A DNA stretch of 36,158 nucleotides, taken from positions 1 through 36,158 of the IMG/VR virus record IMGVR_UViG_3300042876_000707. One strand, 5' to 3'. This document shows positions 4,102-36,158 of the stretch, piece by piece (the first letter of the stretch is position 1; each line of letters starts with the position of its first letter). A program made the position numbers and the translations under genes. This DNA is from a virus. The notes under the pieces are model-generated. The model was not told the origin of the DNA. It was given only the letters and a program-made list of their open reading frames with translations, and did no database searches.

Positions 4102-4130
4102 TTGACATTCTACCCCTGTTATGATAAGAT
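4102..4130 (+). promoter_or_regulatory. Promoter of small RNA 1
   Basis: TTGACA (4102-4107), a 17-base spacer and TAAGAT (4125-4130), with an extended -10 TGA directly before the hexamer. No ORF follows before the terminator at 4140-4201, so the expected product is an RNA of about 65 nt starting near 4137. Confidence 0.75.
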
Positions 4131-4136
4131 GTGCTT

Positions 4137-4201
4137 ACTGACCGCTCCCACCAAAGATCAGCGTTCCAAATTGCAAATCTCTTTGGGCGCGGTCTTTTTT
4201 T
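4137..4201 (+). ncRNA. Candidate small RNA 1 (about 65 nt)
   Basis: This is a complete promoter-to-terminator unit without a coding frame. Nearly the whole transcript forms one hairpin: left arm GACCGCTCCCACCAAAGA (4140-4157) pairs with TCTTTGGGCGCGGTC (4180-4194), followed by seven T. The 22-base loop starts with TCAGCGTTCC (4158-4167), the exact reverse complement of GGAACGCTGA at 29500-29509 in the leader downstream of the early promoter at 29456. Seven of these bases (GGAACGC) also occur in the leader downstream of the promoter at 32944. I infer an antisense-type regulator of early mRNA. A plain terminator downstream of an unrelated start is the alternative. Confidence 0.6.
4140..4201 (+). 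terminator. Intrinsic terminator, + strand
   Basis: A long GC-rich stem (GACCGC, CCCA and AAAGA paired with their complements) is followed by TTTTTTT at 4195-4201. It ends small RNA 1 and would also stop read-through from the early block. Confidence 0.85.
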
Positions 4202-4210
4202 ATTTAAAGC

Positions 4211-4237
4211 AAAAAACCCCTTTACGTGGGGCTTTTT
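4211..4237 (-). terminator. Bidirectional intrinsic terminator
   Basis: CCCC and GGGG arms around TTTACGT are flanked by six A on the left and five T on the right. On the - strand it lies directly behind the 14-residue ORF at 4239-4283; on the + strand it backs up the terminator at 4195. Confidence 0.8.
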
Positions 4238-4368: not shown

Positions 4369-4398
4369 TAGACATAAGCGTGATACTTTTGCTATACT
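4369..4398 (+). promoter_or_regulatory. Promoter of small RNA 2
   Basis: TAGACA (4369-4374), an 18-base spacer and TATACT (4393-4398), with extended -10 TGC immediately before the hexamer. The only thing downstream before the terminator is the candidate RNA at 4405-4467. Confidence 0.7.
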
Positions 4399-4404
4399 AA
4401 TGGC

Positions 4405-4467
4405 CGTGAGATGTAGTTCACAGAGGTGTGAACAAAAAAACGAGCGCTGTGCGAGGGCGCTCGTTTT
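4405..4467 (+). ncRNA. Candidate small RNA 2 (about 63 nt)
   Basis: The transcript would hold a perfect hairpin, GTTCACAGAGGTGTGAAC (4416-4433; seven-base stem, GAGG loop), a run of seven A, and the terminator hairpin CGAGCGC/GCGCTCG. No start codon with a ribosome site is present. The segment ACAGAGGTG (4420-4428) is the reverse complement of CACCTCTGT, which occurs at 29386-29394 and 29420-29428, downstream of the consensus promoter at 29343-29370. I infer a second antisense-type RNA. The GAGG loop also resembles a ribosome site, so binding to the anti-Shine-Dalgarno sequence is an alternative. Confidence 0.55.
4434..4467 (-). terminator. Terminator at the end of the late block, bidirectional
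   Basis: AACGAGCGC (4439-4447) pairs with GCGCTCGTT (4457-4465). On the - strand the stem is followed by seven T (complement of 4434-4440), about 20 bases after the holin stop. On the + strand four T follow, ending small RNA 2. Confidence 0.9.
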
Positions 4468-4486
4468 GATTTATAGCGTGTGTGTT

Positions 4487-29281: not shown

Positions 29282-29429
29282 ACCTCTGTTTTTCTATCAT
29301 CCTTTTTTATATTACACCAGAGTTACACCAACAAAGCAAATTTTGACAAGTAGCTGTAACCGTATATAATATGTTTTTCTTATATCACCTCTGTTATTTC
29401 GTGTATTATTTACAACGCCACCTCTGTTA
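29282..29429. repeat. Three copies of ACCTCTGTT
   Basis: Exact nine-base copies at 29282-29290, 29387-29395 and 29421-29429. The last two are preceded by C, so they contain CACCTCTGT, complementary to ACAGAGGTG in candidate small RNA 2. They flank and follow the promoter at 29343-29370 and may be either DNA-binding sites or RNA targets. Confidence 0.65.
29343..29370 (+). promoter_or_regulatory. Consensus early promoter 1
   Basis: TTGACA (29343-29348), a 16-base spacer and TATAAT (29365-29370). The spacer holds GCTGTAACCG, a repeated motif of this region, so a regulator could sit between the two promoter boxes. The leader from about 29377 contains two CACCTCTGT copies. Confidence 0.75.
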
Positions 29430-29455
29430 AGACAATACTTTATTATATTTTCTAT

Positions 29456-29484
29456 TGACATAATATTGAACATAGCGTATTATG
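29456..29484 (+). promoter_or_regulatory. Early promoter 2
   Basis: TTGACA (29456-29461), a 17-base spacer and TATTAT (29479-29484). The expected leader starts near 29491 and contains GGAACGCTGA (29500-29509), complementary to the loop of candidate small RNA 1. It lies directly before the protease gene. Confidence 0.8.
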
Positions 29485-29524
29485 AGAGGGTCAAGCAAGG
29501 AACGCTGACAAGCCACCAATAGCC

Positions 29525-32943: not shown

Positions 32944-32975
32944 TTGACAAAATAAAACATTATTGATACCATAAT
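32944..32975 (+). promoter_or_regulatory. Promoter for the second early segment
   Basis: TTGACA (32944-32949) is clear. The best -10 choices are TACCAT (17-base spacer) or CATAAT (20). About 14 to 20 bases further on is CAAGGAACGC (32989-32998), also found at 29497-29506 after early promoter 2, so the two leaders share a block. Confidence 0.55.
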
Positions 32976-33020
32976 AAAGTATAAGCAACAAGGAACGCGC
33001 TTAGCAGGAAGGGGGCGAGG

Positions 33021-33080
33021 GTGAAAATTAAGGTTAAATACATCCCATCAATTCACAAGATTAAAGTCAGGGTGAAGTGA
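33021..33080 (+). CDS. 19-residue leader peptide, GTG start
   Basis: GTG at 33021 follows a strong AGGAAGGGGG ribosome site, and the frame ends TGA overlapping the next ATG at 33080 (TGATG). The peptide (KIKVKYIPSIHKIKVRVK after the start) alternates Lys/Arg with hydrophobic residues. It may be a leader that couples translation of the zinc-binding protein. Confidence 0.5.
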   Translation: MKIKVKYIPSIHKIKVRVK

Positions 33081-35808: not shown

Positions 35809-35810
35809 TT

Positions 35811-36158
35811 ATGGGGATGTTTGACGATGTATTAGATAAAGTTGGTGAGCCATTTTCAGGCGGAAAGGGGTTTGAATACGGAACCCATGAAGTAGTAATT
35901 GGAACCGTTAGCCCAACAGAAAAAAAGACCAAGGCTGATCCAAAGGTTGCAGTCATTGAAGTAGTTGTATTTGACGAAAATGACAATGACAAGACTGCAA
36001 CATGCACACTATATTTTCACACTGAAGGAGGCGCTAAAATGTCTGTCGCAAAGGTGTTAGGTATTATGGTGCATAATGTTGGCGAAGAGAAAAAAGAGGC
36101 TGTGCGTGAGCTTGGCAAAAAACTGTTTGCTAGCGTTGATGACCCCACTAAGGCACGT
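35811..36158 (+). CDS. Single-stranded-DNA-binding-like protein, N-terminal part
   Basis: The ATG at 35811 lies two bases after the preceding stop, with GAGG upstream. This part encodes MGMFDDVLDKVGEPFSGGKG, a beta-rich core (YGTHEVVIGTVSPTEKK, VAVIEVVVFDEND, CTLYFHTEGG) and a following Lys/Glu-rich helical section. It runs off the window and continues at base 192 (equivalently base 3 in the repeated part). At the repeated polymorphic site this copy has ATG (Met). The beta-rich core fits an OB-like fold, inferred. Confidence 0.6.
   Translation, partial: MGMFDDVLDKVGEPFSGGKGFEYGTHEVVIGTVSPTEKKTKADPKVAVIEVVVFDENDNDKTATCTLYFHTEGGAKMSVAKVLGIMVHNVGEEKKEAVRELGKKLFASVDDPTKAR
35968..36158. repeat. 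Terminal redundancy, right copy
   Basis: Identical to 1-191 except A at 36039 instead of T at 72. Confidence 0.95.

Follow-up and report, generated by a model that had tools for sequence, protein, structure and literature searches.

The genome under study is IMG/VR virus record IMGVR_UViG_3300042876_000707, a stretch of 36,158 bases that was analysed in full and is referred to here as the window. One stretch of protein (FDENDNDKTATCTLYFHTEGGAK...) is encoded twice, with minor differences, at positions 1-410 and 35810-36158, indicating that the record is effectively a full-length genome with overlapping ends. According to PHROGs and Pfam searches, genes for replication and recombination, among them those for a primase, an SNF2-type helicase, a Sak4-like annealing protein and a YqaJ nuclease, are located in a plus-strand block that extends from 29.5 kb over the ends of the record to 3,975. 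The minus-strand block holds the structural genes. The same searches found neither an integrase nor a repressor in the window genome, in which many ORFs lacked any match; the phage is apparently lytic. Contigs of these phages occur in two Saccharibacteria MAGs; one contig, of 37,354 bases, matches a related full-length genome (G004). On the strength of these two MAG contigs, the hosts are probably Saccharibacteria (Patescibacteria).

The plus- and minus-strand blocks converge on a compact unit whose features, with those of the two early leaders, are listed in Table 1. A sequence-only reading of this DNA had described the unit as a promoter, a hairpin and a T7 tract without an ORF, and our analysis confirmed this. 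The predicted fold of the 65-nt RNA had an energy of −23.9 kcal/mol (z = −5.0), which no shuffled sequence equalled, and no plus-strand ORF was found in the unit, the longest in-unit ORF comprising 13 codons on the minus strand. The same reading had placed the match to an early leader in an exposed loop. This is roughly right: in the MFE fold, UUCCAAAU lies within the terminal loop, but GCG is held in a weak 3-bp stem. An Rfam search at E values up to 5 yielded no family matching the unit, and a phage GenBank collection searched with the DNA yielded no match.

Table 1. Features of the small RNA unit, the early promoter region and the two early leaders in the window.
Feature	Position	Strand	Remarks
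sRNA promoter	4102..4130	+	TTGACA at 4102-4107, 17-nt spacer, extended −10 TGA-TAAGAT ending at 4130
Operator-like motif ACCCCTGTTA	4112..4121	+	in sRNA promoter spacer; common to early promoter region
Putative small RNA, about 65 nt	4137..4201	+	5' end placed from the promoter
Hairpin of sRNA	4140..4194	+	T7 directly 3'
Outer stem, 5' arm GACCGCTCCC	4140..4149	+	partner 4185-4194; compensatory changes
Seed block 1 TCAGCGTTCC	4158..4167	+	core CAGCGTTCCAA invariant in 10 phages
Seed block 2 TTGC	4171..4174	+	TTGCT in most relatives; complement of leader (A)GCAA
Outer stem, 3' arm GGGCGCGGTC	4185..4194	+	compensatory changes
U7 tract, intrinsic terminator	4195..4201	+	read from the sequence; U-rich tail in 9 of 10 relatives
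Bidirectional terminator AAAAAACCCC...GGGGCTTTTT	4211..4237		predicted from sequence; between converging blocks
Third operator-like motif ACCTCTGTTT	29282-29291	+	early promoter region
Two operator-like motifs ACCTCTGTTA	29387..29429	+	between early promoters 1 and 2
Early promoter 2	29455..29483	+	TTGACA-17-TATTAT
Leader-1 hairpin GTCAAGCAAGGAACGCTGAC	29490..29509	+	near expected 5' end of early-operon-1 transcript
Target site 1, AGCAA + GGAACGCTGA	29494..29508	+	complements seed blocks 2 and 1
Early operon 2 promoter	32944..32972	+	TTGACA-17-TACCAT
Target site 2, AGCAA-CAA-GGAACGC	32984..32998	+	in leader 2
19-aa ORF VKIKVKYIPSIHKIKVRVK	33021..33080	+	first ORF of operon 2; 22 nt 3' of target site 2

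Within the window, GGAACGCTGA at 29499-29508 is the 10-base complement of TCAGCGTTCC (4158-4167). The sequence-only reading had reported this complement at 29500-29509, one base off, and had held that the match by itself made chance unlikely. The latter claim was too strong, as 274 of 500 shuffled loops had a complementary stretch, 10 bases or longer, within the window. Genome-wide duplex energy, which ranked the leader only about second, after the self-complement, did not single it out and was dropped as a pointer to it. In a single genome, the match of loop to leader is not clearly beyond chance. Because these statistics were weak, we compared relatives, which were sought with YqaJ, terminase, SprT-like, primase and helicase proteins and with DNA patterns.

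The unit was present in ten divergent phages at the same place behind yqaJ, and its promoter was preserved in the relatives having this sRNA family. Across the ten phages, the outer stem was 97% paired, with changes on both sides at nine of its ten pairs; none of 500 shuffles scored as high, and slid versions were 43–58% paired. Five cells of the outer stem alignment were G-U, which identifies the plus strand as the structured RNA. While the stem varied, the loop CAGCGTTCCAA-(0-3)-TTGC(T) was invariant. Together, these alignments show that the unit is conserved as an RNA structure. A covariance model matched the window at 4138-4202 with 71 bits, known members scoring 61–83 bits, and gave 26 bits to a diverged copy found at the same position in four contigs (L189, L190, L191 and L198). 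One close relative, L185, lacked the unit where it was expected, and its contig does not include the leaders. Nearly all sRNA members and variants also conserve a 3' loop stretch, TCTCTT (4178-4184), which lies outside both the leader pairing and the outer stem.

In relatives, the operon-1 leader either reads GTCAAGCAAGGAACGCTGRC or differs from it by changes that are compensated in the stem, as in L187 (GGTTAGC...GCAACC), and the lower stem of the leader-1 hairpin has compensatory variants in L187 and L192. A second-operon leader with both blocks was found in 13 phages. When 19 leaders from the two different operons were aligned, the only near-invariant columns were AGCAA and GGAACGC, separated by a spacer of 0–7 nt; these are the reverse complements of the two invariant loop blocks. 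The L181 leader has GGGACGC in place of GGAACGC, and its pairing is kept by G-U. The motif occurred at both early leaders in each of the four full-length genomes (the window, G001, G004 and G013), against an expectation of 0.02–0.1, the further copies being the antisense copy in the sRNA of G001, G004 and G013 and one stray in G004. Each of these four genomes contained the exact GGAACGCTG once in sense, in leader 1, and once in antisense, in the sRNA. A leader pattern of GTCAAGC-N-GGAACGCTG was rejected as too loose, its matches falling mostly by chance in coding DNA; a stricter pattern gave 11 loci, some still due to chance.

Loop and leader were also lost together and changed together. In G012, yqaJ and the two early promoters are present, but the sRNA is missing and neither leader contains the motif. 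In the distant L009/L207 clade, the seed GCGUUCC is replaced by GCGCUCC (GCGCTCC in the sRNA DNA) and the leader block GGAACGC by GGAGCG, within ATAAGGAGCGC in operon 1 and TAAGGAGCG in operon 2, each of which is the Shine-Dalgarno (SD) sequence of a short ORF. L009 and L207 are two contigs of one metagenome that overlap by 600 bp at 93% identity and do not constitute one genome; the 11-base match of this clade, taken alone, was reached by 56 of 500 shuffles. For the diverged L189/L198 variant, the predicted leaders, AGCA-N-GGAGCGCT, were not found, the helicase scan having given another subclade. No sRNA matching the TCAGCAAGCRACACGGCAAGCTGA leader of L018 and L019 was found, the region behind yqaJ not having been identified in these contigs. 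On their minus strands, at ~5644 in L018 and ~5978 in L019, ACCCCTGTTA, TATAAT and a hairpin GTATACACGGGACCTCG...CCCGCGATAC lie antisense near the SprT-like gene, possibly a different small RNA of that clade. 16S rRNA, near whose 5' end we take GAACGCUG to lie, was set aside as a target of CAGCGUUC, since the variant seed would break that pairing.

In the comparison of relatives, which had been set beforehand as the check, loop and leader never drifted apart independently. This conservation shows that the match of loop to leader is beyond chance, and it supports the core of the sequence-only reading, namely that the loop is antisense to an early leader. The single-block match to one leader proposed in that reading holds for block 1; the complementarity is bipartite, however, and includes a second target, missed by that reading, before operon 2.

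The predicted sRNA-leader pairing comprises 7–10 bp plus 4–6 bp flanking an internal loop. In the phages examined, operon 2 starts with an ORF of 19–36 aa, and in most of the relatives examined this is a microprotein ORF resembling VKIKVKYIPSIHKIKVRVK. Seed pairing ends 1–30 nt 5' of the start codon of this first ORF, and in four phages (G001, G002, L192 and L207) pairing extends over the SD or bases adjoining the start codon, the SD of G001 leader 2 falling inside the seed. By contrast, target site 1 is more than 100 nt upstream of the annotated gene in most leader-1 sequences, so that direct blocking of the RBS fails to explain leader 1. In L020, L021, L187 and L192, a long leader with long-range complementary arms separates target site 1 from the first gene, as exemplified by CATCTATATAAA and TTTATATAGACG in L020; the window is without such arms.

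On this comparative evidence, we consider it likely that the phage encodes a trans-acting antisense RNA of about 65 nt that pairs with both early leaders, most likely lowering early expression. The RNA would be transcribed from its own promoter, and its hairpin loop would present CAGCGUUCC and, a few nucleotides on, UUGC(U). Their partners would be GGAACGCUG and AGCAA, present within the 5' leader of both early (replication/recombination) operons, and pairing would probably begin as a loop-loop contact with the leader hairpin. At operon 2, the duplex would either overlie the RBS of the first ORF or lie upstream of it at a distance of no more than about 30 nt; at operon 1, it would lie at the 5' end of the leader. 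Early expression would most likely be lowered by blocked ribosome access, by exposure of the duplex to RNase III, or by both. Because the seed ends so close to the start codon and overlaps the SD in the four phages named above, ribosome blocking is the most likely route at operon 2. As site 1 is at the expected mRNA 5' end and usually far from the annotated gene, decay, or an influence on the long and structured leader, appears likelier there. RNase III was found in 40 of 41 genomes of the class to which the hosts probably belong. From its place at the distal end of the early block, the sRNA would exert delayed negative feedback and would favour the switch to late expression. Such feedback, already suggested by the sequence-only reading, fits the gene order, with the targets at the start of the early block and the sRNA at its end, and would be its simplest logic.

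The sRNA might instead activate the leaders by pairing with them, for instance if this opened the leader hairpin or shielded the mRNA 5' end. We regard this as unlikely: the weakly supported leader-1 hairpin would open on pairing, but it does not visibly sequester an SD, and pairing over the SD or start-codon-adjacent bases in G001, G002, L192 and L207 fits inhibition. More doubtful still is that the hairpin is a mere terminator of the early block's yqaJ end, with an accidental promoter-like site and accidental complementarity. Terminators need no fixed loop, yet here the loop is invariant and the stem variable; moreover, the sRNA promoter is kept in relatives, loop and leader are lost or changed together, and another terminator lies directly downstream, all of which weigh against what the position at the block convergence, the U-tract and the 10-base complements of 274 of 500 shuffled loops would suggest. 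Just as improbable is that AGCAA-N-GGAACGC is the DNA site of a phage regulator just 3' of three promoters, reversed at the sRNA gene: the motif does occur near +10 to +30 in all three transcription units, whose promoter regions also have an operator-like motif in common, but the block spacing varies (0–7 nt), the motif is located in an RNA loop, the outer stem of the sRNA covaries and includes five G-U pairs, which the opposite strand would turn into A-C, and the L181 pairing is preserved by G-U.

The promoter of the putative antisense RNA resembles the early promoters in its operator-like motif. ACCYCTGTT(A) occurs at 4112, 29282, 29387 and 29420, with 11 sites at no more than one mismatch versus 4.1 expected, and a ACCCCTGTTA-like motif is recognisable in 8 of 10 sRNA promoters. 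The motif is likely an operator and, being common to the sRNA promoter and the early promoters, suggests that a single DNA-binding regulator may control both. Right after the sRNA lies a second conserved unit (4369-4475). Its promoter reads TAGACA-18-TATACT, its hairpin loop is SD-like (in relatives AGAGG, GAAGG or AAAGG), and its terminator has the loop UGCGAGG. Its counterpart is present in G012, which is without the first sRNA. This unit is perhaps a second small RNA; complements of its loop exist, and no conserved one was seen.

Several known RNAs resemble the proposed antisense RNA in part. In the account of satellite phage P4 given in PMC4825925 (citing Forti 1995 and Briani 2000), CI RNA (seqA/seqC) pairs with two complementary sites and limits the P4 replication genes. 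To the extent of that account, both are small phage RNAs complementary to early-operon leader sites, with the phage's own replication genes as targets. CI RNA, however, is cut out of the very leader transcript under its control and confers lysogenic immunity through transcription termination. The RNA described here has its own promoter and terminator and is encoded at 4137, at the opposite end of the early block from its target sites (29494 and 32984), and would act on two separate operons.

The P1/P7 c4 RNA is a structured phage antisense RNA with complementary stretches in its loops that acts at the RBS of its target (PMC12197685). The present RNA likewise has two short complementary blocks in a loop, but matched no described RNA family in sequence and structure (Rfam). 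While c4 arises from the same transcript as its target, ant, and controls immunity, the present RNA would act in trans on two targets, and its phage is apparently lytic. OOP, an antisense RNA of phage lambda, has a promoter and a terminator of its own and causes target decay by RNase III (PMC12197685). The present RNA, likewise read as a phage antisense RNA, resembles it in having both elements. OOP is a fully complementary cis-antisense to the end of cII, in contrast to the short bipartite complementarity in trans described here, from a locus that differs from the target loci.

Like bacterial trans-encoded sRNAs, the present RNA has its own promoter, a terminator and a short seed complementary to several mRNAs near the RBS. 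The classic enterobacterial representatives use Hfq; by contrast, none of 99 genomes of the likely host class (the class of G025) had an Hfq match in a search whose controls were positive. As with plasmid antisense RNAs, the seed is situated in the loop of the terminator, and its complementarity to the target is preserved by evolution, as is generally asked of trans-acting antisense RNAs.

The seed might further define a regulatory or immunity type, such that GCGUUCC phages shut off early genes in superinfecting GCGUUCC phages and not in those of the GCGCUCC type; we think this improbable. If it were true, the sRNA would serve Hfq-less Saccharibacteria phages as a feedback timer and for superinfection exclusion alike, and would have arisen independently of P4 CI and P1/P7 c4. 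A few model temperate phages are known to control their early genes through RNA, mostly of cis-derived kinds. The present case is a separately encoded RNA family, predicted to target two operons, in related phages of probable Saccharibacteria (Patescibacteria) hosts, with a complementarity that can be traced through evolution, co-loss and co-change included. The covariance model offers a means to find further members.
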